Positions 2,557-49,926 of a stretch of DNA of 64,000 nucleotides are shown here, piece after piece. The position numbers were made by a program, and so were the translations under genes. Each line of letters starts with the position of its first letter. Position 1 is the stretch's first letter. The stretch is from Ryuthela nishihirai (Eukaryota; Arthropoda; Arachnida; Araneae; Heptathelidae). The notes under the pieces are model-generated. The model saw nothing but the letters and a program-made list of their open reading frames with translations, was not told where the DNA came from and did no database searches. The stretch lies in assembly GCA_038380435.1 (NCBI GenBank), contig JAWZYU010000034.1, forward strand, positions 43,214,901-43,278,900, given 5' to 3'.

Positions 2557-2558
2557 AC

Positions 2559-5689: not shown

Positions 5690-6123
5690 TAACAATTTTG
5701 CGCACACAGTGGGCTAAAATGGTCAAGTCACTAAGACCCCAAGAGTTGCACGCATTCAGAGACCTTTGGATGAAAGAGACCCACTGGATGGGCTATATGG
5801 CCAGATCACAAGGACCCAAAAAGCTCAGAAAATGATGGGGGAAAGAGACCCACTTGGACAGCCGTTGGGAGACAGATGGAAGCCTTCCGTCAAGACCATT
5901 CAGTGTGTTCTTCAACGTGCACAAAGTATGGTTCTCCCGCACGCGTGGCCATGGCCTAACGTCAGCTCCGATGAACGGTGGACTTTTCAAACCTATCGGT
6001 GTCCCCAAGCTGACCGTGGACAGGGAGTTTTGCGGAGATAAATCTCAACGCTGGCCCAAATGAGATTCGAACCTGGGAACTGCAGATTATGAGCCTGGCG
6101 TATTACCGACTGAAACTCTCCTA
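5690..6123 (-). repeat. SINE-A, old copy
   Basis: Diverged inverted copy running from a decayed tail (ttttgcgcacacagtggg) to a decayed head (accgactgaaactctccta). The B box complement survives as gattcgaacc. Confidence 0.8.
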
Positions 6124-6193
6124 GTTCCCCCCCCCACATCACTATCAGGTGTTGCTGCGTCCATTAATCTTACAGGTTCACACCTCATCTTGT

Positions 6194-6561
6194 AGGGCGG
6201 GGGTGGCTCAGTAGGTAGCGCACCAGGCTCGTAATCTGCAGTTTCCAGGTTCGAGTCCCACCTGGGCCAGTATTGAGATTTATCTCCGCAAAATCCCCAC
6301 AGTAGGGTTACCAGTGGGCTTGGAAAGGCCGCAGTCCGTCGGATGGGACGTTAAGCTGTGGCCCCGTGTGCGGGAGAGCCATACCCTGTGCACGTAAAAG
6401 AACACGCTGGATGGCCTTGACGGGAGGTTACCGTCTGTCTCAAAACAGCTGTCCAGTGGGTCCCCTCCCTCCAACTTTCTGAGCCCCCGGAGTCCTTGTG
6501 ACTTGGCCATTTAGCCCACTGAGTGCAAAAAAGTGCCGCTCAGAGGTAAAACAACCAAACA
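6194..6561 (+). repeat. SINE-A, near full length
   Basis: Starts agggcgggggtggctcagta, has the B box ggttcgagtcc and a single tail module ending aaaacaaccaaac. Slightly shortened in the body. Confidence 0.9.
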
Positions 6562-7689
6562 CTCACCTTGTGGTTTTCTACCACAAATAATCTATTTTTA
6601 ATTAAACTAGATATTCTCATCACTTAATAGCATCATACAAAAGAAAACACCTCAAAAATTTTTAAAGAAATGACACAAAATATTCTAATCATTTAAACAT
6701 GAAAGAAATCACTAAAAAACGCCTATAAAAGTACCGTTACGTAAGAATGATTTCGCCAATTGAAATCTCCATTAGCAGCTATTAATAGAAATAAAAAAAG
6801 AAATATGCAAAGTTATGTGACACCGAGATAAAATATTGGGAAAGTTCGAGACCGCCCCTGTATATCGAGATTCACAGCAGTCATTGAAGTACTAAAGTGT
6901 AAACATCATATGACATCTTCTTGAAAGAAAAAAAGAAGTATCTGAATTTAAAATCGAAGGCATTTGGTTTGTGAGAGGATTTTTAACATTCTGTTGGCTA
7001 CTTAGCATCATCTATCATTCTCACAAAAAATATCAGTCAAAATATTTCGATGTAATAACTGTAAAAGATTTCCCGAAACTATAATCCTGAAGGATGAGAA
7101 AGTGACCCAGTAAAAATTATTTTGATGCCAAAATTCCGAAACATTTCCGTTGAACTGTGCTACCAAACGAAGTGGATCTGGGATCTGCGCTCTTAAAGTG
7201 AATCTTTCCAATCAAAATTCTTTTAATGCCAAATTTTTCGACTCATTTTCATGGATCTGTGCTCTCAAATGAAGTGAATCCTTGTCATTCAAAATTCTTT
7301 TGATGCCAAAATTCCAATACATTTCCTGCGATCCATTCTCTTAAACGAAGTGACTGCTGCCATCTTTCCCCTGTCGTTTTAACATAATTTCGTAACGATT
7401 CCTGAAGCGATGGAACAGCGGGCTTTTATGCGGCCTGGAAGAGGAAGGAAGCACTTAGAAGCGCTTGATTGACTCTGCTCGTTCATTCTGATGGAGTCGC
7501 TCGCGAAGGAACCCGAGTGCCAAAGGGGAGACAAAACACACATAGTTTCAAGTAGATGGACATATTCATTGCAAATTTCGAAATGTTCTCTATATATCCA
7601 AATGAAAGGAAATGGATATCGAAACCAGAACTGATATCTCAACTCTTTAGTTATCATCTACTCTTAACCAATGTCTATATCAGCAATAG
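6562..7689. other. Unassigned AT-rich sequence with a degenerate tandem repeat
   Basis: No supportable gene. At about 7110-7365 a unit near 95 bp recurs about three times (ttttgatgccaaaattcc, then acatttcc, then cgaagtgaatc), each copy diverged. Confidence 0.5.
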
Positions 7690-8258
7690 GTTGGGTTGTT
7701 TTACCTCTGAGCGGAACGTTTTTGCACAACCATGGGCTAAATGGCCTGGTCACATAAACCCCGAAGGTTCAGAGAAGGTTGGGGGAGGAAACCTAATGGA
7801 ATAGCTGTTGGGTTGGGTTGTTTTACCTCTGAGCGGCACTTTTTTGCACACCATGGGCTAAATGGCCAGGTCACAAGGACCCCGAAGGCTCAGAGAAAGT
7901 TGGGGGAGGGGACACACTGGAACAGCTATTGGGAGACAGATGGTAGCCTCCCGTCAAGGCTCTCCAGCGTGTTCTTTAACGTTGGGTTGTTTTACCTCTG
8001 GGCGGCACTTTTTTGCACACCATGGGCTAAATGGCCAGGTCACAAGGACCCCGAAGGCTCAGAGAAGGTTGGGGGAGGGGACCCACTGGAACAGCTGTTG
8101 GGAGACAGATGGTAGCCTCCCGTCAAGGCCATCCAGCGTGTTCTTTGACGTGCACAGGGTATGGCTCTCCCGCACACGGGGCCACGACTTAACGTCCCAT
8201 CCGATGGACGGCGGCCTTTCGAAGCCCATCGGTGTCCCCTACTGGCCGTGGGCAGGGC
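7690..8258 (-). repeat. SINE-A, 5'-truncated with three tail modules
   Basis: Starts gttgggttgttttacctc on the + strand and contains three modules. It ends in the body at gggcagggcg without the tRNA head. 5' truncation fits mobilisation by a LINE reverse transcriptase. Confidence 0.9.
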
Positions 8259-14702: not shown

Positions 14703-15429
14703 GGTTGGGTTGTTTTACCTCTGAGTGGCACTTTTTTGCACACCATGGGCTAAATGACCAGGTCACAAAGACCCCGAAGGCTCAGAGAAGGTTGGGGGAG
14801 GGGACCCACTGGAACAGCTGTTGGGAGACAGATGGTAGCCTCCCATCAAGGCCATCCAACATGTTCTTTAACGTTGGGTTGTTTTACCTCTGAGCGACAC
14901 TTTTTTGCACACCATGGGCTAAATGGCCAGGTCACAAGGACCCCGAAGGCTCAGAGAAGGTTGGGGGAGGGGACCCACTGGAACAGCTGTTGGGAGACAG
15001 ATGGTAGCCTCCCATCAAGGCCATCCAACATGTTCTTTAACGTTGGGTTATTTTACCTCTGACCGGCACTTTTTTGCACACCATGGGCTAAATGGCCAGG
15101 TCACAAGGGCCACGAAGGCTCAGAGAAGGTTGGGGGAGGGGTCCCACTGGAACAGCTGTTGGGAGACATATGGTAGCCTCCCGTTAAGGCCATCCAGCGT
15201 GTTCTTTAACGTGCACAGGGTATGGCTCTCCCGCAAACGGGGCCACGGCTTAACATCCCATCCGACGGACGGCGGCCTTTCCAAGCCCATCGGTGTCCCC
15301 TACTGACCGTGGGCAGGGCGGAGAGTTTTGCGGAGATAAATCTCAACGCTGACCCAGCTGGGATTCGAACCTGTGAACTACAGATTACGAGCCTGGCGCA
15401 CTACTAACTGACTGAGTCACCCCCGCCCC
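14703..15429 (-). repeat. SINE-A, full length with three tail modules
   Basis: Three modules of about 168 bp joined at aacgttgggttg on the + strand, then body and head ending gtcacccccgcccc. The first two modules share the variant ccatccaacatgttc, so one was probably copied from the other. Confidence 0.92.
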
Positions 15430-21275: not shown

Positions 21276-22745
21276 GAAAATATTTACTTTATTTATGACC
21301 CATTTTTTTCATATAGATCAGTTCTCCATATTTAATCTCAGCTTCTTATAATCATCTAAGCTTCTTGTAATCATCTCACCTTTTTACAACCACCTTAGAT
21401 TCTTCCAACATTTCAGCATCTTACAATGATCTCAGCTTTTTATAATCATCTCAGCTTCTTACAACCATTTCAACTTCCTACAATCATCTGAGCTTCTCGC
21501 AATCATTAAAGTTTCTTACAACTATTTAAGCATTTTACAGTCATCTCAGCTTCTCACGCAGTAATCTCAGGTTCTTACATCCATCTCAGCTTCTTCCAAT
21601 CACCTCAGCTTCATAAAATACATTTCTTCAACCATCTCAGCTTCTTGCCATCATAGCTTCTTCCACATCATCTCAGCTTCTTACAGCCATAATAGCTTCT
21701 TGTAATCATCTCAGATTCTTACACCCATAACAGATTCTTGTAATCATCTCGGCTTCTTACAAACATTTCAGCTTTTTAAAATCATCTTTTGTTCTTACAA
21801 CCATCGCAGCTTTTTACAGCCATTGCTCTCCTTACAGTCATTTCAGCTCCTTTCAATCATCTCAGCTTCTTAAAACCATCCCAGCTCTCTATAACTGCGA
21901 AGAACATCAAGAATCAATTCTACATATTCCTCTGTAGTTCTATAGGAAATGTTCATTAGCAGAAAAAGCGCCAATGCTATGTTGACAATAACGAACTCCC
22001 ACTCGGCAGTCTGATCCTTACGACTGCCCATTTTTTTTATTTCATCAGCGACATGTAGGAGAGAGAAGAATCCTAGAAGCTACTCCTAGCTTCTAGGATA
22101 GCATTGGCGCTTTTTCTGCTAATGAACATTTCCTATAGAACTACAGAGGAATATGTAGAATTGATTTTTGATGTTCTTCGCAGTTATAGAGAGCTGGGAT
22201 GGTTTTAAGAAGCTGAGATGATTTAAAGGAGCTGAGATAACTGTAAGGAGATCAATGGCTGTAAAAAGCTGCGATGATTGTAAGAACAAAAGATGATTTT
22301 AAAAAGCTGAAATGTTTGTAAGAAGCCGAGATGATTACAAGAAGCTATTATGGCTGTAAGAAGCTGAGATGATGTGGAAGAAGCTATGATGGCAAGAAGC
22401 TGAGATGGTTGAAGAAATGTATTTTATGAAGCTGAGATGATTGGAAGAAGCTGAGATGGATGTAAGAACGTGAGATCACTGTGTGAGAAGTTGAGATGAC
22501 TGTAAAACGCTTAAATAGTTGTAAGAAACTTTAATGATTGCGAGAAGCTCAGATGATTGTAGGAAGTTGAAATGGTTGTAAGAAGCTGAGATGATTATAA
22601 AAAGCTGAGATCATTGTAAGATGCTGAAATGTTGGAAGAATCTAAGATGGTTGTAAGAAGGTTAGATGATTATAAGAAGCTGAAATTAAATATGGAGAAC
22701 TGATCGATACGAAAAAAATGGGTCATAAAAAAAGTAAATATTTTC
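21276..22745. repeat. Long foldback (inverted repeat with minisatellite arms)
   Basis: Left arm 21276-21980 and right arm 22098-22745 are reverse complements over essentially their full length, with a few indels, separated by about 117 bp. Each arm consists of a degenerate unit of about 23 bp (ctcagcttcttacaatcat on the left, its complement on the right). The inner 90 bp of each arm is non-repetitive (gcgccaatgctat side). No target duplication or coding frame is seen at the outer ends. A transcript would form a hairpin of roughly 650 bp. Confidence 0.9.
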
Positions 22746-23785: not shown

Positions 23786-23791
23786 GTGCTC
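23786..23791. other. Target-site duplication GTGCTC, left
   Basis: Identical to 37723-37728. A 6 bp duplication is the size produced by Polinton/Maverick integration. Confidence 0.9.
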
Positions 23792-23820
23792 AGTAGTGAG
23801 TAAAGGAGAGTTCTGGAACA

Positions 23821-23882
23821 GTGGCGGATCAATGTTAATCCTATGGGATCCGCCACCCATGTGTTTTAAGCTGGTGGCGGAT
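23821..23882 (+). promoter_or_regulatory. Left subterminal GTGGCGGAT cluster
   Basis: Three copies of gtggcggat within about 60 bp, 30 bp inside the terminus: direct at 23821, inverted at 23847-23856, direct at 23874-23882. The first two form a 10 bp perfect stem (gtggcggatc/gatccgccac). Subterminal repeats commonly bind transposition or replication proteins; that role is inferred here. Confidence 0.6.
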
Positions 23883-24178
23883 GATTATCAATCACATTAG
23901 TCATGCAGTGTCAAAAAGAATACCTCCCTCCAGTGATGTAATAATCTGAAATTATATTATTCAGTTAAATTGCAGATAATCCATTAGTAATTTCCACCGA
24001 CGTCCATCTTGGTTTCCACAAAGTCCGATTTTTTTTTTTCAATTCCACCATTTTGGAATCTGACGTCACCGATTAGCAGTTCTACCTTTTAAAGTATTTT
24101 TACCCAATAGCATTGTTTCTTTCCGTTTCTGCAGGTCAATCTTTTATTCCAGTTTCTGCGGGATAGTCATTCTTCTAG

Positions 24179-24206
24179 TATAAATACGACATCCATCGGT
24201 CAGATT
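24179..24206 (+). promoter_or_regulatory. Core promoter of the left polymerase gene
   Basis: TATA box tataaata at 24179-24186 and an arthropod initiator-like tcagatt at 24200-24206, about 23 bp apart. A second tcagaca lies at 24220. Transcription from here gives a 5' UTR of about 135 bases whose first ATG is the assigned start codon. Confidence 0.65.
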
Positions 24207-24336
24207 CCTCATTCTGTTGTCAGACATTGACAGTGACGGCTCTCTGCTGCTGCTTCTCCGTGATTTTTCCAACGGCAATAGTGATAGTTCTCGACGTCCT
24301 CGTGTAGTATCAGCTATTTTACAACTCTGCTACATA

Positions 24337-27300
24337 ATGTATCCATGTGATATATGTGAGAAGGCTTTCACACTCAAGACAAATCTGATTCGTCATATGA
24401 GAAATCACGATGGAAATAGCCTGTTTAAGTGCTCTGAGTGCGAATCGACATTCTCAAGGAGAGATGATGTCCGACGTCATGAGTTATCCCACACCTCCAG
24501 GAAAACCTACAAATGTGAAGAATGTGCAATGGAGTTTGGGCGAAAAGACAGTCTTTTGCGCCATCAAAGAAAGCCCCACAATAATAAGCGAAAACGTTCT
24601 GAAGATGAAAGGATTCCGCAGAAGAAGCAAAAACCAGACCCTGAAGACCCCTGTCAGTTTACAGAAGAAATGAAAAGGACCCTATCAACACATAAACTGA
24701 CGGCAACGGAAGAAACATCAGTTGACCTCACCTTTTTCCTCGAATCCTCGCGGGAGTCACTCCTAACTCATCTGAAAGAAGAATTGACCTCGAAAGGTAG
24801 CATTAAATGGTACCTTGTCGTGCAAGTGCGATTCAGGCGAAAAGTTTCCCCTTCTACCTTTGAACACTGTACCCCGTTTTTCCGAAGTAACTGTGTCACA
24901 AGCCTACCTACATCATCCCTAAACAGAGAATTGGATTCAGCGTATAAGAAGATTAAGACCTCATTTGAAGAATTTGAAGGAGCACATAGTGGATGGACAC
25001 TGGACGCCGTACTCCACGCTGAAATGAACATTGGAAAATATATCCCTCTTGCAGGATCTAGTTATATCCCTACTCCAAGAGAATTACTGCTAAAACACGC
25101 TATTGTCAATGTATGTAATTCTGACCAAAAATGTTTTGTCTGGTCTGTTTTAGCCTCTTTGTATCCTGCCACAGATAATCCGCAGCGCCTTAACAACTAT
25201 ATACATTTAGAAGACAAATTAAACACATCGGGCTTAATTTTCCCTGTTACAATAAATCAAATATCTAAATTCGAAAAAATGAACAATATTTCTGTTAATG
25301 TTTTTGGATATGAGAAAGAGGTGTTCCCACTCTACATCACACCATTCAGATTTAAAGCGCATGCAAATCTCCTTCTGTTATCGGATGATGAAAAGCAGCA
25401 TTATTGCTCCATTAAGAATATGAGTAGACTTCTCAGTCCTCTCACCAAACATAACGGTGTACGTTTCTACTGTGATTACTGCCTTCACCGTTTCGCAAAT
25501 GAATCCCTCTTGAAGGATCATGTTCCCTATTGTCGAGAACATGGACCTCAGAGAGTAGAACTCCCAACTGAAGAAGAGAAATGGTTGAAATTCACAAATT
25601 TTAAGTTTCAGCAGCTCGTTCCATACGTGATTTATGCCGACTTTGAATCATTCCTAGTGAAAGTGGACACTTGTATGCCTAACCCTGAAAAATCTCACAC
25701 CACTATCACGGCAAATCATGAACCCTGTGGATTTGCATATCTTGTTGTTGGACATGATGGCTGCAGCTATAAGCCTCCAGTAGTTTATAGAGGTCCTAAT
25801 GTAGTAGAAGAATTTTTAGAATGTCTGCTTAAAGAAGAAGAAAACATTAAAAATTTACTGTCGATGATAAAGCCAATGCAGCTCTCGAATCATGAAGAGG
25901 AATCATTTCACAACGCTACTGACTGTCATATTTGTAAGCATGCCCTAGGAGCAGATCGTGTGAGAGATCACGATCATATAACAGGTAAATTCCGAGGAGC
26001 TGCCCATAATTCCTGTAATCTGAACTTTAAGTTAACCAATAGGATTCCAGTTATCTTTCACAACCTAAAGGGATATGACAGCCACCTTATTATGCAGGGA
26101 ATCGGCAGAATCAAAAATAAGAAGATTAATTGCATTCCCAATAACATGGAAACATACATAACCTTCTCCTTAGGGACATTACATTTTATAGACTCCTATC
26201 AGTTTTTAAGCACATCCCTTGAGAAGCTAGTAAATAATTTATCACCAGATGAGTTCCATATTTTAAAGGAACATGTTGAAACTGAACGGTTACACCTGGT
26301 TTTGAGAAAAGGAGTTTACCCCTATGATTATATTGACAACAGTGAAAAGTTTGAACAAATAGTATTACCACCACGTGAAGCATTTTACAACCAACTCACA
26401 GAAGAAGCACTAGGGGAAGAAGACTATACCCATGCAATAAGAGTATGGAATACATTCAACATAAAAAATCTAGGCCAGTATCATGACTTGTACCTGAAGA
26501 CAGACGTGCTCCTCTTAGCTGATGTTTTCGAAAGTTTCAGAAAACTATGCATCAGATACTATGAAATCGATCCCTGCCATGTTTACACAGCTCCTGGATT
26601 AGCCTGGCAAGCATGCTTAAAAATGACAAATGTAAATCTTGAGTTGATAACTGACCCTACAATGTACCTTTTCCTGGAAAAAGGCATACGAGGGGGAATT
26701 TCTGTGATATGCAATCGTCTTAGTACAGCAAACAACAAGTATTTGGACACCTATGATCCTCAGTTACCCTCTAAATACATTATGTACTATGATGCCAACA
26801 ATCTTTATGGATGGGCAATGTCACAATGCCTCCCTCAAAGCGATTTTCGATGGCTTAATAAAGAAGAAATAGCAGATCTAAATATTACGACAATTGCTGA
26901 CGATGCGAATAAAGGATACATATTGGAAGTTGATTTAGATTATCCAGTTTCTCTACACGACAAGCATAATGATTATCCACTAGCCCCTGAGAAACTTCAG
27001 ATTACCAGCAGCATGCTATCCCCATATTGTCAAGAGGTTGCCCAAAGCCTTGGAATAAATACAAACCATTCAGTCGTGAAATTAGCCCCAAATCTAAATT
27101 CTAAGGAAAAATATGTCCTTCATTATCGAAATCTCAAACAATATTTAACCTTCGGTATGCAGCTGAAGAACATACATCGCGTTTTAGAATTTAATCAGTC
27201 TTGCTGGCTAAAACCATATATAGAATTTAATACAGATCAGCGGAAGAAAGCTAGAAACGACTTCGAGAAGGACTTCTTCAAACTGATGAATAATGCTGTG

Positions 27301-28056
27301 TTTGGAAAAACGATGGAAAATTTGAGAAATCGAGTGAAAATTGAATTGACTCAGAGCCCGAAGAGAGTATGCAAGCTCGTAGCATCCCCTGCTTTTCACG
27401 CTTTTCGTGTTTTTGACAACGACCTTGCATGTGTGCAATCAAAGCTAACTAAATTGAAACTCAACAGGCCTATTTATGCTGGTTTCAGTATTCTAGATAT
27501 TAGTAAACTATTGATGTATAGCTTTCATTATGACTATATTAGTCCGAAATATGGAGAAAAAGCTAAATTATTTTTTACTGATACAGATTCACTGTGCTAC
27601 GAGCTTCAAACCGAGGACGTGTATGCTGATATGAAAGACGATATAGATCATTTTGACACGTCCGACTATCACATTGATCATGTTTTGCATAGTACACATA
27701 ATAAAAAGGTACTAGGTAAAATGAAAGATGAACTTTCGGGAGTACCTATCAAACAATTTGCAGGGCTTCGTTCTAAAATGTATTCCCTTCAGAGTTTACA
27801 TGAGGAGAAGAAGACGGGGAAAGGAGTCCCCAAATACATCGTAAAAAGAACCCTTCGTCACAAGGATTACAGAGACTGCTTAATAAACAAATCACCTTGT
27901 CGAGTAGATTTGACAAGGATTCAAAGTAGCAGCCACCATCTTCATACAGTGAAAGGTGTAAAGCTTGGTTTGTCACCATTTGACGATAAAAGATATATTT
28001 TAGAAAATGGTTATGACACCCTTTCGTACGGTCACTACAAAACATTGAAAAAATAA
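24337..28056 (+). CDS. Family B DNA polymerase (Polinton protein-primed type), left-arm copy
   Basis: Predicted to replicate the element's linear DNA, by family using a protein primer. It has 1,239 residues from the first ATG after the TATA box; the frame is open further upstream but has no ATG. Order: C2H2 fingers at C4/C7/H20/H24, C32/C35/H48/H52 and C60/C63/H76/H81; a basic nuclear-localisation-like stretch at 83-100; a further C2HC cluster at 379-399; Exo I YADFES (D435, E437); an endonuclease VII-like zinc/HNH module (C530, C533, DHDH 544-547, H557, C560); Exo II HNLKGYD (D581); Exo III Y719/D723; Pol A DANNLYGW (D819); Pol B KLMNNAVFGK (982-991); Pol C DTD (1082-1084); and KMY near 1147-1149. 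All catalytic residues are present, so it looks functional. Length fits Polinton polymerases. No intron is needed. The right arm encodes an identical protein. Confidence 0.95.
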   Translation: MYPCDICEKAFTLKTNLIRHMRNHDGNSLFKCSECESTFSRRDDVRRHELSHTSRKTYKCEECAMEFGRKDSLLRHQRKPHNNKRKRSEDERIPQKKQKPDPEDPCQFTEEMKRTLSTHKLTATEETSVDLTFFLESSRESLLTHLKEELTSKGSIKWYLVVQVRFRRKVSPSTFEHCTPFFRSNCVTSLPTSSLNRELDSAYKKIKTSFEEFEGAHSGWTLDAVLHAEMNIGKYIPLAGSSYIPTPRELLLKHAIVNVCNSDQKCFVWSVLASLYPATDNPQRLNNYIHLEDKLNTSGLIFPVTINQISKFEKMNNISVNVFGYEKEVFPLYITPFRFKAHANLLLLSDDEKQHYCSIKNMSRLLSPLTKHNGVRFYCDYCLHRFANESLLKDHVPYCREHGPQRVELPTEEEKWLKFTNFKFQQLVPYVIYADFESFLVKVDTCMPNPEKSHTTITANHEPCGFAYLVVGHDGCSYKPPVVYRGPNVVEEFLECLLKEEENIKNLLSMIKPMQLSNHEEESFHNATDCHICKHALGADRVRDHDHITGKFRGAAHNSCNLNFKLTNRIPVIFHNLKGYDSHLIMQGIGRIKNKKINCIPNNMETYITFSLGTLHFIDSYQFLSTSLEKLVNNLSPDEFHILKEHVETERLHLVLRKGVYPYDYIDNSEKFEQIVLPPREAFYNQLTEEALGEEDYTHAIRVWNTFNIKNLGQYHDLYLKTDVLLLADVFESFRKLCIRYYEIDPCHVYTAPGLAWQACLKMTNVNLELITDPTMYLFLEKGIRGGISVICNRLSTANNKYLDTYDPQLPSKYIMYYDANNLYGWAMSQCLPQSDFRWLNKEEIADLNITTIADDANKGYILEVDLDYPVSLHDKHNDYPLAPEKLQITSSMLSPYCQEVAQSLGINTNHSVVKLAPNLNSKEKYVLHYRNLKQYLTFGMQLKNIHRVLEFNQSCWLKPYIEFNTDQRKKARNDFEKDFFKLMNNAVFGKTMENLRNRVKIELTQSPKRVCKLVASPAFHAFRVFDNDLACVQSKLTKLKLNRPIYAGFSILDISKLLMYSFHYDYISPKYGEKAKLFFTDTDSLCYELQTEDVYADMKDDIDHFDTSDYHIDHVLHSTHNKKVLGKMKDELSGVPIKQFAGLRSKMYSLQSLHEEKKTGKGVPKYIVKRTLRHKDYRDCLINKSPCRVDLTRIQSSSHHLHTVKGVKLGLSPFDDKRYILENGYDTLSYGHYKTLKK

Positions 28057-28373
28057 CATAGCAGAAAAAACGAATATTTCACTGTGATTTTTAATATGCT
28101 TGAGCTATTTATGTATAAAAAATATGATAATTTTATCCAAATGTGTGCATATAACCCCCTATATATGTAAAAATAATACATGTTATTATTATATGTAGAT
28201 AGCTGTATGTAAAAACCATTTCCTCTGTTAACCTGCATTTTTTTTTTTTGTAAGCAGGCTGTAAAGTATAATCAATGTGAAAAAGCATCATTGTGAAATG
28301 TATAAAATTGTAAACCAATGGAAATCATTACATGTGCACGCATTGTCATTGTTTCACCTAATACTTTGAAATC

Positions 28374-28379
28374 AATAAA
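28374..28379 (+). terminator. Polyadenylation signal AATAAA, left polymerase gene
   Basis: AATAAA about 320 bp after the stop codon, followed by T-rich and GT-rich sequence. First good candidate in the 3' flank. Confidence 0.6.
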
Positions 28380-28585
28380 AATTTTTAAATGAAATATATG
28401 TGTCGTCTGAGTCTTATCCTTGGCAAGTGGAGTGATAAACAAGCGTTAGCCGCTTCTCACGTGACTTACTCCGCATGCACCTGTGATGCTGACTCACTTC
28501 CAACCGCTCATATCCTGTTGGAAGGTCAGACCTCACTCACTGCGAGAAAGCTCTTCTAGGATCCATTTCTGGGATTACACTTATA

Positions 28586-28972
28586 ATGAAAGGTGAGTAA
28601 TTCTCTAAATTTTCATGGTTTATCAAACATTACTTATAATTTCGTGATGTAGTGACGTTCTCAAGTATTAAGAAGTGATGAAAACATAAGATTTCCTTTC
28701 AAAGTTATCGTAACTCGCTTGCTTGCTTGTTACCGGAACAAGCCTCCTAGAAATCAACGTCTTTTTTTTTTAAAGCAATCACCTCTCAAAAGCACCGCAA
28801 CTTCAATAAATGCTCTGAGTGCTGTGTTTATGAAAAATATATCAGTACGGGATGAAATTCTAATTTTTACTTTGCAGAGACGAGAACTTTACGTAGATTT
28901 TTACAGAGAAATAATCGAAATTATTGCATCAGCCATTTAGCGATAAAGTATTTTAGAGCAGATTTTTACTGA
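28586..28972 (+). other. Possible spliced micro-ORF, left arm
   Basis: An ATG at 28586 is followed seven bases later by a strong donor (aaag|gtgagt). A good acceptor (ctaatttttactttgcag) ends at 28877. Joining them gives a frame of 33 codons plus a stop at 28970-28972. The protein would be basic and is not recognised. The acceptor and exon are duplicated at about 29807. Upstream, 28520-28530 has an initiator-like tcagacc. This may be a real small gene, an untranslated leader or chance. Confidence 0.25.
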
Positions 28973-29597
28973 ATATTAATACTTTAGAATAAAGGATAAT
29001 TTCCTGTATATAATACAGAGGTGTACAGACGAATTTTATTTCCTACGAATAAAAAACAAAAATAGGATTTTCATACTGTTATTCGAATTACTCACTTACC
29101 ACTTGTTTCAACTGTTTAGTAAAAAAAAAAATACATTTAATTCCCAGTTTTTTAACGACTGAGATAAAAAAAAATATGCTTACCTACATTAAATACAATG
29201 TAAAATAGCGAAATTCACCACTTATTTCAACTGTTTAGTAAAAAAAATACATTTAATTCCCAGATTTTTAACGACTGAGATAAAAAAAATATGCTTACCT
29301 ACATTAAATACAATGTAAAATAGCGAAATTCACCACTAATTTCAGCTGCTTAATATCAAGAAATACAGGCGATTTCCTGTTTTTTTTTTTTTAGCATTGC
29401 ACATAAGAGAAAAAAAAAGACTAGCGAACGTATTAACATGTATACCTCTGGTACTTAAATATGACATGCTCTGTGTTTCAATATTACACATTTTTTCAGT
29501 AGTTTACACATTAATTACTAATTTTTTTTTTCATTCAACAGTTAAGTATCACAATTGGAAGTAATGTGCGCAATATTTCCTGTTTAAATGCATCTCT
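28690..29597 (+). repeat. Internal direct repeat, copy 1, left arm
   Basis: Starts gatttcctttcaaagttatc and ends cctgtttaaatgcatctct. The colinear second copy is at 29609-30388. Copy 1 also contains a tandem duplication of about 120 bp (ttcaccact, then tttcaactgtttagt, to tgtaaaatagcgaaa) at roughly 29090-29335. AT-rich and non-coding apart from the possible exon noted above. Confidence 0.85.
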
Positions 29598-29608
29598 CTA
29601 CAAAAAAA

Positions 29609-30388
29609 GATTTCCTTTCAAAATTATCGTAACTCGCTTGCTTGCTAGTACATTACATGGCCCGAATCGAGCCACCTCGAAATCAACGTTTTTTTTTTTG
29701 AAGCGATCACTTCTCAGAAGTGGAAGACTTCAATAAATGCACCGAGTGCTGTGTTTATGAGAAAATTATCAGCACGGAATGAAAATCTAATTTTTTTTAC
29801 TTGCAGAGACGAGAACTTTACGTAGATTTTTACAGAGAAATAATCGAAATTATTGCATCAGCCATTTAGCGATAAAGTGTTTTACTGAATATTAATACTT
29901 TAGAATAAAGCATAATTTCCGGTGTATAATACCGAGGTGTACAGACGAATTTTATTTCCTATGAATAAAAAAATAGGATTTTGATACCGTTATTCGAATT
30001 ACTCAGTTAATTCACCACTTATTTCAACTGTAAAAAAAAAAATACATTTAATTCCCAGATTTTTTAACGACTGAGATAAAAAAAATAATATGCTTACCTA
30101 CATTAAATACAATGTAAAATAGCGAAAATTCACCACTAATTTCAGCTGCTTAATATCAAGAAATACAAACGATTTCCTGTTTCTTTTTTTTTAGCATTGC
30201 ACATAAGAAAAAAAGACTAGCGAACGTATCAACATGTACCTCTGAGACTTAAATATGACATGCTCTGTGTTTCAATATTACACATTTTTTTCAGTATTTT
30301 ACACATTAATTACTTACTTTTTTTCATTCAACAGTTAAGTACCCAATTGGAAGTAATGTTAGCAATATTTCCTGTTTAAATACATCTC
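29609..30388 (+). repeat. Internal direct repeat, copy 2, left arm
   Basis: Diverged copy of 28690-29597, with a different stretch after gcttgctagta and only one of the 120 bp subunits. It retains an acceptor-like sequence ending at 29806. Confidence 0.85.
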
Positions 30389-30714
30389 CAGAAATCCGCT
30401 TTAAAACATTTTCTTATAATTTAAGGGGAAAATAAAGAATTTTAATTGAATTTCTTTTAACACTATATACTTAATATATTGTAATCAACGTATTCTATAT
30501 ACAAAACGAATTAATACAGCCTAGTTACTGGAAATTAACATGATGTTGAAGTGCTTTCTACCTAAAGATTTAAAAAAAACCTGAAGACTTTAATTTTAAT
30601 TACATTTTTAGCCACTAGATGGCGACACAGTTACTATTAGACCTTGGGACAGACGAGAGAAACTTGAAGCCTTTGCTCAGAGCGCCACCTAGCGGGATTT
30701 TCAGTAGTTTAGTC

Positions 30715-30799
30715 ACAACCTACGGTTCCCCCTTTGCACAGTGCTTTCCCCTCTGACGTCACCACGTGGACTTTGACCCAAGGGGGACCGTCCGGTTGC
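30715..30799. other. Central spacer of the palindrome
   Basis: 85 bp. Its outer 22 bp on each side are still imperfectly inverted (caacctacggttccccc against caaccggacggtccccc), while the innermost about 40 bp are unique and contain tgacgtcaccacgtgg. The palindrome therefore once reached further inward, and only the centre has diverged. Confidence 0.85.
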
Positions 30800-31125
30800 G
30801 ACTAAACTACTGAAAATCCCGCTAGGTGGCGCTCTGAGCAAAGGCTTCAAGTTTCTCTCGTCTGTCCCAAGGTCTAATAGTAACTGTGTCGCCATCTAGT
30901 GGCTAAAAATGTAATTAAAATTAAAGTCTTCAGGTTTTTTTTAAATCTTTAGGTAGAAAGCACTTCAACATCATGTTAATTTCCAGTAACTAGGCTGTAT
31001 TAATTCGTTTTGTATATAGAATACGTTGATTACAATATATTAAGTATATAGTGTTAAAAGAAATTCAATTAAAATTCTTTATTTTCCCCTTAAATTATAA
31101 GAAAATGTTTTAAAGCGGATTTCTG

Positions 31126-31905
31126 GAGATGTATTTAAACAGGAAATATTGCTAACATTACTTCCAATTGGGTACTTAACTGTTGAATGAAAAAAAGTAA
31201 GTAATTAATGTGTAAAATACTGAAAAAAATGTGTAATATTGAAACACAGAGCATGTCATATTTAAGTCTCAGAGGTACATGTTGATACGTTCGCTAGTCT
31301 TTTTTTCTTATGTGCAATGCTAAAAAAAAAGAAACAGGAAATCGTTTGTATTTCTTGATATTAAGCAGCTGAAATTAGTGGTGAATTTTCGCTATTTTAC
31401 ATTGTATTTAATGTAGGTAAGCATATTATTTTTTTTATCTCAGTCGTTAAAAAATCTGGGAATTAAATGTATTTTTTTTTTTACAGTTGAAATAAGTGGT
31501 GAATTAACTGAGTAATTCGAATAACGGTATCAAAATCCTATTTTTTTATTCATAGGAAATAAAATTCGTCTGTACACCTCGGTATTATACACCGGAAATT
31601 ATGCTTTATTCTAAAGTATTAATATTCAGTAAAACACTTTATCGCTAAATGGCTGATGCAATAATTTCGATTATTTCTCTGTAAAAATCTACGTAAAGTT
31701 CTCGTCTCTGCAAGTAAAAAAAATTAGATTTTCATTCCGTGCTGATAATTTTCTCATAAACACAGCACTCGGTGCATTTATTGAAGTCTTCCACTTCTGA
31801 GAAGTGATCGCTTCAAAAAAAAAAACGTTGATTTCGAGGTGGCTCGATTCGGGCCATGTAATGTACTAGCAAGCAAGCGAGTTACGATAATTTTGAAAGG
31901 AAATC
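31126..31905 (-). repeat. Internal direct repeat, copy 2, right arm
   Basis: Mirror of 29609-30388. Confidence 0.8.
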
Positions 31906-31916
31906 TTTTTTTGTAG

Positions 31917-32824
31917 AGAGATGCATTTAAACAGGAAATATTGCGCACATTACTTCCAATTGTGATACTTAACTGTTGAATGAAAAAAAAAATTAGTAAT
32001 TAATGTGTAAACTACTGAAAAAATGTGTAATATTGAAACACAGAGCATGTCATATTTAAGTACCAGAGGTATACATGTTAATACGTTCGCTAGTCTTTTT
32101 TTTTCTCTTATGTGCAATGCTAAAAAAAAAAAAACAGGAAATCGCCTGTATTTCTTGATATTAAGCAGCTGAAATTAGTGGTGAATTTCGCTATTTTACA
32201 TTGTATTTAATGTAGGTAAGCATATTTTTTTTATCTCAGTCGTTAAAAATCTGGGAATTAAATGTATTTTTTTTACTAAACAGTTGAAATAAGTGGTGAA
32301 TTTCGCTATTTTACATTGTATTTAATGTAGGTAAGCATATTTTTTTTTATCTCAGTCGTTAAAAAACTGGGAATTAAATGTATTTTTTTTTTTACTAAAC
32401 AGTTGAAACAAGTGGTAAGTGAGTAATTCGAATAACAGTATGAAAATCCTATTTTTGTTTTTTATTCGTAGGAAATAAAATTCGTCTGTACACCTCTGTA
32501 TTATATACAGGAAATTATCCTTTATTCTAAAGTATTAATATTCAGTAAAAATCTGCTCTAAAATACTTTATCGCTAAATGGCTGATGCAATAATTTCGAT
32601 TATTTCTCTGTAAAAATCTACGTAAAGTTCTCGTCTCTGCAAAGTAAAAATTAGAATTTCATCCCGTACTGATATATTTTTCATAAACACAGCACTCAGA
32701 GCATTTATTGAAGTCCCGGTGCTTTTGAGAGGTGATTGCTTTAAAAAAAAAAGACGTTGATTTCTAGGAGGCTTGTTCCGGTAACAAGCAAGCAAGCGAG
32801 TTACGATAACTTTGAAAGGAAATC
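31917..32824 (-). repeat. Internal direct repeat, copy 1, right arm
   Basis: Mirror of 28690-29597. Carries the two-base difference at 32715-32716. Confidence 0.8.
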
Positions 32825-32928
32825 TTATGTTTTCATCACTTCTTAATACTTGAGAACGTCACTACATCACGAAATTATAAGTAATGTTTGATAAACCATG
32901 AAAATTTAGAGAATTACTCACCTTTCAT
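32542..32928 (-). other. Possible spliced micro-ORF, right arm
   Basis: Mirror of the 28586-28972 candidate, with the same start, donor, acceptor and stop. The only arm difference falls in its putative intron. Confidence 0.25.
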
Positions 32929-33134
32929 TATAAGTGTAATCCCAGAAATGGATCCTAGAAGAGCTTTCTCGCAGTGAGTGAGGTCTGACCTTCCAACAGG
33001 ATATGAGCGGTTGGAAGTGAGTCAGCATCACAGGTGCATGCGGAGTAAGTCACGTGAGAAGCGGCTAACGCTTGTTTATCACTCCACTTGCCAAGGATAA
33101 GACTCAGACGACACATATATTTCATTTAAAAATT

Positions 33135-33140
33135 TTTATT
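33135..33140 (-). terminator. Polyadenylation signal AATAAA, right polymerase gene
   Basis: Reads AATAAA on the minus strand, mirrored from 28374-28379. Confidence 0.6.
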
Positions 33141-33457
33141 GATTTCAAAGTATTAGGTGAAACAATGACAATGCGTGCACATGTAATGATTTCCATTGGT
33201 TTACAATTTTATACATTTCACAATGATGCTTTTTCACATTGATTATACTTTACAGCCTGCTTACAAAAAAAAAAAATGCAGGTTAACAGAGGAAATGGTT
33301 TTTACATACAGCTATCTACATATAATAATAACATGTATTATTTTTACATATATAGGGGGTTATATGCACACATTTGGATAAAATTATCATATTTTTTATA
33401 CATAAATAGCTCAAGCATATTAAAAATCACAGTGAAATATTCGTTTTTTCTGCTATG

Positions 33458-36400
33458 TTATTTTTTCAATGTTTTGTAGTGACCGTACGAAAGGGTGTCA
33501 TAACCATTTTCTAAAATATATCTTTTATCGTCAAATGGTGACAAACCAAGCTTTACACCTTTCACTGTATGAAGATGGTGGCTGCTACTTTGAATCCTTG
33601 TCAAATCTACTCGACAAGGTGATTTGTTTATTAAGCAGTCTCTGTAATCCTTGTGACGAAGGGTTCTTTTTACGATGTATTTGGGGACTCCTTTCCCCGT
33701 CTTCTTCTCCTCATGTAAACTCTGAAGGGAATACATTTTAGAACGAAGCCCTGCAAATTGTTTGATAGGTACTCCCGAAAGTTCATCTTTCATTTTACCT
33801 AGTACCTTTTTATTATGTGTACTATGCAAAACATGATCAATGTGATAGTCGGACGTGTCAAAATGATCTATATCGTCTTTCATATCAGCATACACGTCCT
33901 CGGTTTGAAGCTCGTAGCACAGTGAATCTGTATCAGTAAAAAATAATTTAGCTTTTTCTCCATATTTCGGACTAATATAGTCGTAATGAAAGCTATACAT
34001 CAATAGTTTACTAATATCTAGAATACTGAAACCAGCATAAATAGGCCTGTTGAGTTTCAATTTAGTTAGCTTTGATTGCACACATGCAAGGTCGTTGTCA
34101 AAAACACGAAAAGCGTGAAAAGCAGGGGATGCTACGAGCTTGCATACTCTCTTCGGGCTCTGAGTCAATTCAATTTTCACTCGATTTCTCAAATTTTCCA
34201 TCGTTTTTCCAAACACAGCATTATTCATCAGTTTGAAGAAGTCCTTCTCGAAGTCGTTTCTAGCTTTCTTCCGCTGATCTGTATTAAATTCTATATATGG
34301 TTTTAGCCAGCAAGACTGATTAAATTCTAAAACGCGATGTATGTTCTTCAGCTGCATACCGAAGGTTAAATATTGTTTGAGATTTCGATAATGAAGGACA
34401 TATTTTTCCTTAGAATTTAGATTTGGGGCTAATTTCACGACTGAATGGTTTGTATTTATTCCAAGGCTTTGGGCAACCTCTTGACAATATGGGGATAGCA
34501 TGCTGCTGGTAATCTGAAGTTTCTCAGGGGCTAGTGGATAATCATTATGCTTGTCGTGTAGAGAAACTGGATAATCTAAATCAACTTCCAATATGTATCC
34601 TTTATTCGCATCGTCAGCAATTGTCGTAATATTTAGATCTGCTATTTCTTCTTTATTAAGCCATCGAAAATCGCTTTGAGGGAGGCATTGTGACATTGCC
34701 CATCCATAAAGATTGTTGGCATCATAGTACATAATGTATTTAGAGGGTAACTGAGGATCATAGGTGTCCAAATACTTGTTGTTTGCTGTACTAAGACGAT
34801 TGCATATCACAGAAATTCCCCCTCGTATGCCTTTTTCCAGGAAAAGGTACATTGTAGGGTCAGTTATCAACTCAAGATTTACATTTGTCATTTTTAAGCA
34901 TGCTTGCCAGGCTAATCCAGGAGCTGTGTAAACATGGCAGGGATCGATTTCATAGTATCTGATGCATAGTTTTCTGAAACTTTCGAAAACATCAGCTAAG
35001 AGGAGCACGTCTGTCTTCAGGTACAAGTCATGATACTGGCCTAGATTTTTTATGTTGAATGTATTCCATACTCTTATTGCATGGGTATAGTCTTCTTCCC
35101 CTAGTGCTTCTTCTGTGAGTTGGTTGTAAAATGCTTCACGTGGTGGTAATACTATTTGTTCAAACTTTTCACTGTTGTCAATATAATCATAGGGGTAAAC
35201 TCCTTTTCTCAAAACCAGGTGTAACCGTTCAGTTTCAACATGTTCCTTTAAAATATGGAACTCATCTGGTGATAAATTATTTACTAGCTTCTCAAGGGAT
35301 GTGCTTAAAAACTGATAGGAGTCTATAAAATGTAATGTCCCTAAGGAGAAGGTTATGTATGTTTCCATGTTATTGGGAATGCAATTAATCTTCTTATTTT
35401 TGATTCTGCCGATTCCCTGCATAATAAGGTGGCTGTCATATCCCTTTAGGTTGTGAAAGATAACTGGAATCCTATTGGTTAACTTAAAGTTCAGATTACA
35501 GGAATTATGGGCAGCTCCTCGGAATTTACCTGTTATATGATCGTGATCTCTCACACGATCTGCTCCTAGGGCATGCTTACAAATATGACAGTCAGTAGCG
35601 TTGTGAAATGATTCCTCTTCATGATTCGAGAGCTGCATTGGCTTTATCATCGACAGTAAATTTTTAATGTTTTCTTCTTCTTTAAGCAGACATTCTAAAA
35701 ATTCTTCTACTACATTAGGACCTCTATAAACTACTGGAGGCTTATAGCTGCAGCCATCATGTCCAACAACAAGATATGCAAATCCACAGGGTTCATGATT
35801 TGCCGTGATAGTGGTGTGAGATTTTTCAGGGTTAGGCATACAAGTGTCCACTTTCACTAGGAATGATTCAAAGTCGGCATAAATCACGTATGGAACGAGC
35901 TGCTGAAACTTAAAATTTGTGAATTTCAACCATTTCTCTTCTTCAGTTGGGAGTTCTACTCTCTGAGGTCCATGTTCTCGACAATAGGGAACATGATCCT
36001 TCAAGAGGGATTCATTTGCGAAACGGTGAAGGCAGTAATCACAGTAGAAACGTACACCGTTATGTTTGGTGAGAGGACTGAGAAGTCTACTCATATTCTT
36101 AATGGAGCAATAATGCTGCTTTTCATCATCCGATAACAGAAGGAGATTTGCATGCGCTTTAAATCTGAATGGTGTGATGTAGAGTGGGAACACCTCTTTC
36201 TCATATCCAAAAACATTAACAGAAATATTGTTCATTTTTTCGAATTTAGATATTTGATTTATTGTAACAGGGAAAATTAAGCCCGATGTGTTTAATTTGT
36301 CTTCTAAATGTATATAGTTGTTAAGGCGCTGCGGATTATCTGTGGCAGGATACAAAGAGGCTAAAACAGACCAGACAAAACATTTTTGGTCAGAATTACA

Positions 36401-37177
36401 TACATTGACAATAGCGTGTTTTAGCAGTAATTCTCTTGGAGTAGGGATATAACTAGATCCTGCAAGAGGGATATATTTTCCAATGTTCATTTCAGCGTGG
36501 AGTACGGCGTCCAGTGTCCATCCACTATGTGCTCCTTCAAATTCTTCAAATGAGGTCTTAATCTTCTTATACGCTGAATCCAATTCTCTGTTTAGGGATG
36601 ATGTAGGTAGGCTTGTGACACAGTTACTTCGGAAAAACGGGGTACAGTGTTCAAAGGTAGAAGGGGAAACTTTTCGCCTGAATCGCACTTGCACGACAAG
36701 GTACCATTTAATGCTACCTTTCGAGGTCAATTCTTCTTTCAGATGAGTTAGGAGTGACTCCCGCGAGGATTCGAGGAAAAAGGTGAGGTCAACTGATGTT
36801 TCTTCCGTTGCCGTCAGTTTATGTGTTGATAGGGTCCTTTTCATTTCTTCTGTAAACTGACAGGGGTCTTCAGGGTCTGGTTTTTGCTTCTTCTGCGGAA
36901 TCCTTTCATCTTCAGAACGTTTTCGCTTATTATTGTGGGGCTTTCTTTGATGGCGCAAAAGACTGTCTTTTCGCCCAAACTCCATTGCACATTCTTCACA
37001 TTTGTAGGTTTTCCTGGAGGTGTGGGATAACTCATGACGTCGGACATCATCTCTCCTTGAGAATGTCGATTCGCACTCAGAGCACTTAAACAGGCTATTT
37101 CCATCGTGATTTCTCATATGACGAATCAGATTTGTCTTGAGTGTGAAAGCCTTCTCACATATATCACATGGATACAT
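33458..37177 (-). CDS. Family B DNA polymerase (Polinton protein-primed type), right-arm copy
   Basis: Encodes the same 1,239-residue protein as the left-arm gene, residue for residue: three C2H2 fingers, the endonuclease VII-like module between Exo I and Exo II, and intact Exo I-III and Pol A-C motifs. The start is the first ATG downstream of the mirrored TATA box. The two genes converge towards the centre and stop about 5.4 kb apart. Two intact, identical genes in one element mean either that the duplication is very recent or that the arms are kept identical by copying one from the other. Both copies appear competent to make protein. Confidence 0.95.
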   Translation of the reverse strand: MYPCDICEKAFTLKTNLIRHMRNHDGNSLFKCSECESTFSRRDDVRRHELSHTSRKTYKCEECAMEFGRKDSLLRHQRKPHNNKRKRSEDERIPQKKQKPDPEDPCQFTEEMKRTLSTHKLTATEETSVDLTFFLESSRESLLTHLKEELTSKGSIKWYLVVQVRFRRKVSPSTFEHCTPFFRSNCVTSLPTSSLNRELDSAYKKIKTSFEEFEGAHSGWTLDAVLHAEMNIGKYIPLAGSSYIPTPRELLLKHAIVNVCNSDQKCFVWSVLASLYPATDNPQRLNNYIHLEDKLNTSGLIFPVTINQISKFEKMNNISVNVFGYEKEVFPLYITPFRFKAHANLLLLSDDEKQHYCSIKNMSRLLSPLTKHNGVRFYCDYCLHRFANESLLKDHVPYCREHGPQRVELPTEEEKWLKFTNFKFQQLVPYVIYADFESFLVKVDTCMPNPEKSHTTITANHEPCGFAYLVVGHDGCSYKPPVVYRGPNVVEEFLECLLKEEENIKNLLSMIKPMQLSNHEEESFHNATDCHICKHALGADRVRDHDHITGKFRGAAHNSCNLNFKLTNRIPVIFHNLKGYDSHLIMQGIGRIKNKKINCIPNNMETYITFSLGTLHFIDSYQFLSTSLEKLVNNLSPDEFHILKEHVETERLHLVLRKGVYPYDYIDNSEKFEQIVLPPREAFYNQLTEEALGEEDYTHAIRVWNTFNIKNLGQYHDLYLKTDVLLLADVFESFRKLCIRYYEIDPCHVYTAPGLAWQACLKMTNVNLELITDPTMYLFLEKGIRGGISVICNRLSTANNKYLDTYDPQLPSKYIMYYDANNLYGWAMSQCLPQSDFRWLNKEEIADLNITTIADDANKGYILEVDLDYPVSLHDKHNDYPLAPEKLQITSSMLSPYCQEVAQSLGINTNHSVVKLAPNLNSKEKYVLHYRNLKQYLTFGMQLKNIHRVLEFNQSCWLKPYIEFNTDQRKKARNDFEKDFFKLMNNAVFGKTMENLRNRVKIELTQSPKRVCKLVASPAFHAFRVFDNDLACVQSKLTKLKLNRPIYAGFSILDISKLLMYSFHYDYISPKYGEKAKLFFTDTDSLCYELQTEDVYADMKDDIDHFDTSDYHIDHVLHSTHNKKVLGKMKDELSGVPIKQFAGLRSKMYSLQSLHEEKKTGKGVPKYIVKRTLRHKDYRDCLINKSPCRVDLTRIQSSSHHLHTVKGVKLGLSPFDDKRYILENGYDTLSYGHYKTLKK

Positions 37178-37307
37178 TATGTAGCAGAGTTGTAAAATAG
37201 CTGATACTACACGAGGACGTCGAGAACTATCACTATTGCCGTTGGAAAAATCACGGAGAAGCAGCAGCAGAGAGCCGTCACTGTCAATGTCTGACAACAG
37301 AATGAGG

Positions 37308-37335
37308 AATCTGACCGATGGATGTCGTATTTATA
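37308..37335 (-). promoter_or_regulatory. Core promoter of the right polymerase gene
   Basis: TATA box at 37328-37335 and initiator-like tcagatt at 37308-37314, read on the minus strand. Mirror of the left promoter. Confidence 0.65.
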
Positions 37336-37631
37336 CTAGAAGAATGACTATCCCGCAGAAACTGGAATAAAAGATTGACCTGCAGAAACGGAAAGAAACA
37401 ATGCTATTGGGTAAAAATACTTTAAAAGGTAGAACTGCTAATCGGTGACGTCAGATTCCAAAATGGTGGAATTGAAAAAAAAAAATCGGACTTTGTGGAA
37501 ACCAAGATGGACGTCGGTGGAAATTACTAATGGATTATCTGCAATTTAACTGAATAATATAATTTCAGATTATTACATCACTGGAGGGAGGTATTCTTTT
37601 TGACACTGCATGACTAATGTGATTGATAATC

Positions 37632-37693
37632 ATCCGCCACCAGCTTAAAACACATGGGTGGCGGATCCCATAGGATTAACATTGATCCGCCAC
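37632..37693 (-). promoter_or_regulatory. Right subterminal GTGGCGGAT cluster
   Basis: Mirror of the left cluster: three gtggcggat copies in direct, inverted, direct order, 30 bp inside the right terminus. Confidence 0.6.
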
Positions 37694-37722
37694 TGTTCCA
37701 GAACTCTCCTTTACTCACTACT

Positions 37723-37728
37723 GTGCTC
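37723..37728. other. Target-site duplication GTGCTC, right
   Basis: Matches 23786-23791 exactly. Confidence 0.9.
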
Positions 37729-39603: not shown

Positions 39604-40209
39604 TCAAGCAGCCATGGACTTCGGAGGTCCAACCAGACCGTGTAGTTTAATTCTCCAAGCATATCTGTCCTGAGCTACATCTGCTGCATCCGGCCACTGC
39701 ACACCAATTCTAACAAGGTCCTGTTTGACATTGTCTGCCCACCTCATCCTTCGTCTCCCCTTCTTTCTGAGGCCTTTAGGTACACTGTTCATAACCCTAT
39801 TCGCCAATCTATAATTTCTCATATGGGCAACATGGCCAAACCAATGGAGTCTCTCTCTGCACAATATGCTGCTTAAAGGAGGTTGCAAACTCCTTTGCCT
39901 AACCTCATCATTAGTTACAAAGTTGAACCACCTAATGCCCAAGATACTGCGTAAGCATCTGGAATCAAAAGCACCACGTTTCCTGTTATCTTGTTTACAA
40001 AGTGTCCAAGTTTCACTACCATAACTAACCCTAGAAAGAACCAAACTATTATACAGTCTAATTTTAGTCTTTAGGTGTATACGCCTATTTCTCCACACTC
40101 TCCATAGATTCTTAAAAGTCCCGGCAGCAATCCCTATTCGTCTGTTAATCTCATGCCGCACATCACCATTATCTGTTACATAGCTCCCAAGATAATTAAA
40201 CTGTGACAC
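39604..40209 (-). pseudogene. Non-LTR retrotransposon reverse transcriptase, C-terminal fragment
   Basis: An uninterrupted frame of 201 codons matches the region after the catalytic palm of LINE reverse transcriptases. It shows YLGSYVT, EINRRI, a TKIRLYNSLVLSR-SYGSETW block, CLRSILGIRW and LHWFGHVAHM. It ends with a basic stretch and a VKQDL-AQDRYAW region typical of RTE-like proteins. The catalytic YADD part and the endonuclease are missing, so it is a 5'-truncated dead copy. After the stop the minus strand runs into gaggatgatgaggatga, like the short 3' repeats of RTE elements. The clade is a judgement from memory of family patterns, not a search. Confidence 0.8.
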
Positions 40210-40259
40210 CTGCTCATGAGTGCAGCCATTTCAAAGCAACTGAAGCACTATCTGCCTGA

Positions 40260-49205: not shown

Positions 49206-49926
49206 GGGGCGGGGGTGGCTCAGTCGGTAGCGCCCAGGCTCGTAATCTGTAGTTTCCAGGTTCGAGTCCCAGCTGGGTCAGCGTTGAGATTTATCTCCGC
49301 AAAATTCCCGCCCTGCCCACGGTCAGTAGGGGACACCGATGGGCTTGGAAAGGCCGCCGTCCGTCGGATGGGACGTTAAGCCGTGATCCCGTGTGCGGGA
49401 GAGCCATACCCTGTGCACGTAAAAGAACACGCTGGATGGCCTTGACGGGAGACTACCATCTGTCTCCCAACAGCTGTTCCAGTGAGTCCCCTCCCCCAAA
49501 CTTCTCTGAGCCTTCGGGGTCCTTGTGACCTGGCCATGTAGCCCATGGTGCGCAAAAAAGTGCCGCTCAGAGGTAAAACAACCCAACGTTAAAGAACACG
49601 CTGAATGGCCTTGACGGGAGGCTACCATCTGTCTCCCAACAGCTGTTCCAGTGGGTCCCCTCCCCAACCTTCTCTGAGCCTTCGGGGTCCATGTGACCTG
49701 GCCATTTAGCCCATGGTGTGCTAAAAAGTGCCGCTCAGAGGTAAAACAACCCAACGTTAAAGAACACGCTGGATGGCCTTGACGGGAGGCTACCATCTGT
49801 CTCCCAACAGCTGTTCCAGTGAGTCCCCTCCCCCAACCTTCTCTGAGCCTTCGGGGTCCTTGTGACCTGGCCATTTGAGCCCACGGTGTGCAAAAAAGTG
49901 CCGCTCAGAGGTAAAACAACCCAACC
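49206..49926 (+). repeat. SINE-A, full length with three tail modules
   Basis: Flanked by ctgcgtgtac / ctgtgtgtac (49196-49205 and 49927-49936, one mismatch). Complete head with A and B boxes. Module starts at about 49419, 49588 and 49756 give a module length near 168 bp. Confidence 0.92.

Follow-up and report, generated by a model that had tools for sequence, protein, structure and literature searches.

We report that a 64,000-nucleotide stretch of contig JAWZYU010000034.1 from the spider Ryuthela nishihirai (the window) contains a 13,931-bp mobile element with Polinton-type ends, of which all but a short central spacer is inverted repeat, and in which a single gene, encoding a predicted protein-primed DNA polymerase, is present intact in both halves. 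Elements with the same ends and palindromic layout occur at many other loci. It is probable that they form a transposon lineage built on a mirrored polymerase half, likely replicating as a snap-back replicon and probably drawing its integrase from other Polinton-like elements. With less assurance, we also lean towards a fuller proposal, namely a one-gene snap-back replicon that would remake its mirror at each jump, rely on an all-in-one polymerase, borrow the integrase of full Polintons, and be parasitised by gene-free palindromes.

Layout of the palindrome and its copies in the genome

The original prediction described arms of 6,923 bp, an 85-bp spacer, identical 1,239-residue polymerases and no further Polinton-like frame, and this layout was reproduced exactly. 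Its features, in window positions, are as follows.

23792-37722 (JAWZYU010000034.1 / C34:43238692-43252622): palindromic element, 13,931 bp
23786-23791: target-site duplication GTGCTC, left copy, by direct reading
37723-37728: target-site duplication GTGCTC, right copy, by direct reading
23792-30714, + strand: left arm, 6,923 bp, starting with AGTAGTGAGTAAAGG (AGT twice)
30800-37722, - strand: right arm, 6,923 bp, inverted copy, terminal letters CCTTTACTCACTACT
30715-30799: central 85-bp spacer (fold point), with imperfect self-complementarity around TGACGTCA
24337-28056, + strand: polymerase gene of the left arm, inward-reading, 1,239 residues from ATG
33458-37177, - strand: identical polymerase gene of the right arm, inward-reading
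28057-30714: inner left arm, non-coding, A+T-rich (right counterpart, 30800-33457)

The inverted repeat accounts for 13,846 of the 13,931 bp, and its arms differ at three positions in 6,923 bp (pairs 27531/33983, 28798/32716 and 28799/32715); chance cannot account for a 6.9-kb inverted repeat with three mismatches. Folded as single-stranded DNA, positions 30700-30815 of the window copy reach -32.5 kcal/mol (z -8.2 versus shuffles). The inner arms carry direct repeats at spacings of 800-929 bp, one of them also at 115. Nothing in the 5.4 kb between the two genes (28057-33457) stays free of stops for more than 94 codons, and the element has no frame for ATPase, protease, or major or minor capsid genes and no class II transposase, the polymerase being the sole frame. 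An Rfam search of the window gave no match.

Copies were surveyed in one genome assembly of 3.11 Gb. A protein search in which the best candidates were scored yielded 36 polymerase genes, all without stops (36/36), falling into 15 inward-facing pairs and six single listings; the span between the start codon sides is 13,067-13,107 bp in 14 of the 15 pairs and 19,286 bp in the remaining one. The 39-bp terminal sequence, allowing up to two mismatches, occurs 77 times per strand (control, 0), and the 16-nt end followed by a non-A base matches the genome at 121 + 127 = 248 places (control, 0 + 1), the following base being G at all 100 places listed. When these 100 listed ends were taken in contig order, they resolved into 45 paired elements of 3.9-18.0 kb, leaving 10 ends unpaired; 28 elements measure 13.87-14.30 kb and nine measure 11.99-12.79 kb.

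Every element read across its fold point is palindromic (20/20; 16 with polymerase arms or part of them, and four non-coding). These comprise the window element and ten others, C1:93824239, the truncated C30:32963417, and L031, L032, L033, L038, L059, L060 and L061; C133, C2:6589582 and C22:68247953, in which the mid-point sample fell within an arm, are excluded from the count. Perfect 6-bp target-site duplications, all different, flank 21 of the 22 elements checked. The exception, the C87 copy (L027/L028, C87:391221-405146), is palindromic and has no duplication, perhaps owing to recombination between copies or to a flanking deletion. The suggestion that the layout belongs to a lineage rather than to an accident is therefore borne out, other copies sharing the ends, the 6-bp duplications and the palindromic polymerase-only layout. 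With 36 scored genes and 248 terminus matches, the window does not hold the only copy, and a one-off rearrangement is ruled out by the many copies in the genome.

We also considered whether palindromy is a general trait of PolB elements in this genome and rejected it, as none of the 76 other PolB matches listed has a second PolB match within 30 kb. No palindromic relative was found in a viral contig (L063) or in 11 contigs from bacterial or archaeal bins (L064-L074), most of which are too short to exclude one, and viral contigs queried with the single protein yielded no relative. One metagenome-bin contig contains an imperfect 257-bp palindrome (L074:1163-1419) upstream of a distant PolB gene.

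A polymerase with predicted accessory domains

The polymerase frames are open for 1,279 residues from a TTG (24217-28056, + strand; 33458-37297, - strand), and their two translations are identical. Above the Pfam cut-off the protein matches zinc fingers only, the Endonuclease_7 match being sub-threshold. It is assigned to the family B polymerases because its homologues carry PF03175, because Exo and Pol motif strings can be located in it, and because of its predicted fold. The best PDB match of the structural model is phi29 polymerase (Foldseek 2pyj, E 1.1e-17) and its top viral structure matches are densovirus/bidnavirus-like and adintovirus polymerases, while the modelled N-terminus resembles the Y-family little finger and OTU proteases. 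The models thus predict a protein-primed family B polymerase, in which terminal-protein, OTU-protease, exonuclease and polymerase domains would be joined in one polypeptide, as listed here for the left arm (residues counted from TTG).

24340-24570, + strand: C2H2 zinc fingers at the N-terminus, residues 42-118 (three PF00096 stretches and solved-structure matches)
24664-25050, + strand: predicted terminal-protein-like domain, residues ~150-278
25072-25428, + strand: predicted OTU-like cysteine protease domain, residues ~286-404 (D, C and H columns invariant in the alignment)
25633-27816, + strand: exonuclease and polymerase (palm) region, predicted fold phi29-polymerase-like
25915-26022, + strand: Endonuclease-VII-like zinc insert, residues 567-602 (PF02945 below cut-off and PHROG matches)

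Since a terminal protein and a protease are both predicted within the polymerase, a complete replication module could be supplied by one gene. The same plan, TP-vOTU-EXO-PALM (TP, terminal protein), is given as the architecture of Polinton polymerases in the excerpted text of PMC11071308. The C, H and N positions of the Endonuclease-VII-like insert are invariant across 38 aligned sequences, and the insert is also conserved in relatives of unknown layout. In phage T4 the Endonuclease VII fold cleaves branched DNA, and the insert could act on a cruciform.

The polymerase gene is under purifying selection between subfamilies: the window gene and that of L033 are separated by 27.5 synonymous and 12.5 nonsynonymous changes (ratio of nonsynonymous to synonymous rates, dN/dS, 0.116; binomial p 2e-10).

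Symmetric variation, moving fold points and their origin

To a large extent the two arms of a copy vary together. An alignment of 22 arms from 11 copies (columns 13-6860) contains 77 variable sites, made up of 52 substitutions and 25 indels, and the arms of the same copy differ in 21 of 847 copy-by-site cells; when right arms were permuted among copies, 10,000 trials averaged 246 such cells and no trial gave fewer than 54. In the nine-copy subset lacking the divergent C18 and C26b, 19 cells differ (shuffle mean 84, minimum 34). Of the 25 indel sites, 17 agree between the arms in every one of the 11 copies and eight do not, and substitutions private to one copy occur on both arms in 14 cases and on a single arm in eight, the latter as expected of mutations after insertion. 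C18 and C26b have in common 42 alleles (30 substitutions and 12 indels) that are absent from the other nine copies; all lie within arm columns 5,329-6,837 and are present on all four arms (42/42), with none in the outer 5.3 kb. This pattern is a core swap, symmetric on the arms. A template switch inward combined with self-copying outward would produce it, whereas straight-through copying of a palindrome would not.

The fold point itself moves. In L038 (C2:11267195-11271062; 3,868 bp, flanked on both sides by GGCGTT) the sequence follows arm positions 1-1968 and then returns on the opposite strand from 1903, leaving ~64 nt unpaired, so that the mirror point lies inside the polymerase gene; the reading covered the centre (651 bases, 100% identical to the main arm where sampled) and the ends, and the total length is as expected from such a turn. 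In L033, a 13.99-kb palindrome with the same polymerase and an arm 97% identical, the usual spacer is replaced by a palindrome of one spacer half with an 11-nt loop, which was read from the sequence by eye, an automatic axis search that allowed no loop having missed the palindrome. Among the nine main copies, eight of 168 central columns are variable (one of them a gap), whereas 17 of 6,828 arm columns carry substitutions. A self-complementary moiety, a short loop and variable fold points, the attributes of a snapback genome, are thus found together, in integrated DNA only, with loops of 85 nt (window), ~64 nt (L038) and 11 nt (L033).

Further members differ in content. L032 is a 12.6-kb palindrome with the same polymerase and one frame break, and its synonymous divergence (dS) from the window gene is 0.098 in the first 425 codons and 0.010 in the rest, a near-tenfold contrast that marks these elements as mosaics. 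L031 (C6:105655177-105662416) is a 7.24-kb palindrome, 98.5% self-inverse, with the duplication TCAGTG; its likeness to the main arm is confined to the first few hundred bases, and it has no frame longer than 87 codons. Judged by their centres, L059, L060 and L061 are of the same non-coding type. All four (6.5-7.4 kb, with the same ends and 6-bp duplications in 4/4) are satellites of the polymerase-bearing family.

These observations can be accommodated by the following scheme, whose fold-back step is read from the anatomy of the element. The polymerase would copy the element from its AGTAGT ends by predicted protein priming, possibly initiating at AGTAGT by jumping back, as the excerpted text of PMC4974454 describes for the 3'-GTAGTA ends of adenovirus; such initiation is consistent with one copy that has lost a single AGT at one end. 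The displaced strand, having complementary halves, would fold at its centre into a 6.9-kb hairpin in which one arm could template the other, so that the palindrome would be remade at each jump. The finished palindrome would then be inserted in trans by an integrase of other Polinton-like elements. The arm-symmetric variants and refolded copies make one-arm templating testable from sequence in any genome bearing such elements.

A close variant of this scheme, rather than its opposite, is that the replicon is linear and of monomer length with a hairpin at one end, the integrated palindrome being its unfolded dimer, by analogy with hairpin-ended viral genomes. It would explain one-arm templating equally well, and the spacer is indeed a strong imperfect hairpin and more variable than the arms. 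However, no resolvase is recognised apart from the Endonuclease-VII-like insert, whose conservation extends to the relatives of unknown layout mentioned above, and we regard this variant as unlikely.

The main rival explanation for arm symmetry is gene conversion after insertion, in which a single ancestral inverted duplication would have been copied end to end by transposition while chromosomal conversion kept the arms identical. Conversion also yields arm-symmetric variants, and it has a precedent in the long palindromes of sex chromosomes, which convert themselves. Yet it offers no account of new fold points, yielding neither the 3,868-bp palindrome, which is mirrored elsewhere, nor the L033 centre as refolded; it must also bring numerous homopolymer tracts to equal length in every young copy, a demand set by the 17 symmetric and eight asymmetric indel sites; and it needs a separate inverted duplication for the non-coding palindromes with the same ends. 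We consider it improbable as the overall explanation.

Less probable again is a passive composite, in which the polymerase is a passenger and a Polinton mobilises the non-autonomous element, providing polymerase as well as integrase. In its favour, the non-coding palindromes with the same ends also move, and replication functions can therefore act in trans. Purifying selection and the absence of stops in 36/36 scored genes argue against it, as does the failure to see any autonomous element with these ends among those listed. The longer copies measure 15.6 kb, 16.3 kb (C2:6589582), 16.6 kb (C133 and C4), 18.0 kb and 19-20 kb (C104); a hidden autonomous element was sought in C2:6589582 and C133 and rejected for these two, which match the polymerase arm where sampled (L034-L037). 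Lastly, long reads are known to give rise to spurious perfect palindromes, but an assembly artefact in which unsplit fold-back reads created a false palindrome is scarcely credible: 21 of 22 loci have both ends, 6-bp duplications and flanks of their own, differences specific to one arm are resolved inside copies, and the elements come in several subfamilies and sizes.

Source of integration and relation to known elements

By sequence, no recognised integration gene is present in the window element. We infer a borrowed integrase because the elements have 6-bp duplications and no integrase gene of their own. Potential donors are present: L063, a viral-contig Polinton, has an integrase with at least 129 relatives in this genome, many of them 367-residue stop-free frames, and the near-equal scores of these frames suggest a recently active integrase-bearing family. 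For 13 of the 129 a packaging-ATPase match is no more than 20 kb away (1.2 kb or less in 11 cases), and for two another PolB match lies at a distance of ~8 kb. When 86 integrase places were compared with the 45 listed elements (78 on the same contigs), none fell inside any of these elements, and no element combining an integrase with the same terminus was found among those listed. Integrase-bearing elements lie at C5:11995202-12004015 and C39:4472689-4481881. Over the 451 bases preceding the integrase, two copies agree to 91%, and this stretch still belongs to the element. The claim that the element contributes replication and not integration fits these results: no integrase occurs in the elements checked, and the element is probably non-autonomous for integration. 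The presence of AGTAGTGAG-type ends on integrase-bearing elements, if true, would name the helper, whereas unrelated ends would weigh against their acting in trans-integration.

Among the matches listed, the 76 other PolB hits and the 150 packaging-ATPase hits nowhere come within 40 kb of one another; PolB and ATPase may reside in different element types in this genome.

The closest relatives by anatomy are the Polintons/Mavericks (adintoviruses). In the excerpted text of PMC8097293, vertebrate Mavericks have ends of the form (AGT)2//(ACT)2 or (AG)3//(CT)3 with 6-bp duplications, and intact ones have terminal inverted repeats of 46-1,447 bp; the window element has the (AGT)2//(ACT)2 ends and the 6-bp duplications. 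It also has an inward-oriented PolB that is predicted to be protein-primed, and whose N-terminus may include the terminal-protein and OTU domains that the excerpted text of PMC11071308 gives for Polintons. It differs in lacking integrase, ATPase, protease and capsid genes, in repeats that span all except 85 bp, and in a polymerase gene in both halves. Agreeing in end motif, duplication and polymerase, and departing in integrase, morphogenesis genes and repeat layout, it is a Polinton-derived variant and not a Polinton.

By analogy, the nearest described product is the snapback genome of adeno-associated virus. In the excerpted text of PMC8235507, these are self-complementary single-moiety molecules, symmetric or looped; they are, however, subgenomic particles that replicate given Rep and helper functions. 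The window lineage is instead chromosomal and multi-copy, with its own polymerase gene. Similar palindromic adenovirus genomes exist. Cytoplasmic linear plasmids likewise have a Polinton-type protein-primed PolB with a terminal-protein domain and have lost the morphogenetic module (PMC11071308, in excerpt), but they are plasmids, whereas the members of the window lineage are integrated between 6-bp duplications and are palindromic throughout. Foldback-like transposons differ in that the coding capacity of the window element lies inside its repeats; Galileo has a P-element-type transposase, of which there is none in the window element. Bidnaviruses and bidnavirus-like densoviruses have a similar modelled PolB fold and are among the top viral structure matches, and bidnaviruses are a further case in which a different kind of element has acquired the polymerase of a Polinton (PMC11071308, in excerpt); unlike the window element, which has no capsid gene, they are viruses with linear single-stranded DNA genomes and capsids. 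Among the matches listed from open PMC text there was no palindromic or polymerase-only Polinton, Repbase and subscription papers being outside that scope.

Viral replication is known to generate snap-back genomes as subgenomic by-products, and here such a form has apparently turned into a heritable, expanding transposon lineage. If this is true, Polinton replication and integration can be split between different elements, and the lineage would be a natural test of how giant palindromes are made and kept by protein-primed replication. The inward-facing identical genes would, moreover, predict double-stranded RNA and thereby a particular relation to host silencing.

The surroundings of the element are repetitive. 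Directly upstream are two 19-bp tandem arrays, apparently in inverted orientation (21335-21886 and 22192-22683), and a dispersed repeat of ~169 bp forms short tandem arrays across the window (1310-1819, 7812-8151, 14704-15212, 49417-49925, 56703-57042 and others). The minus strand at 39604-40230 contains a frame of 208 codons that we take to be reverse-transcriptase-like.

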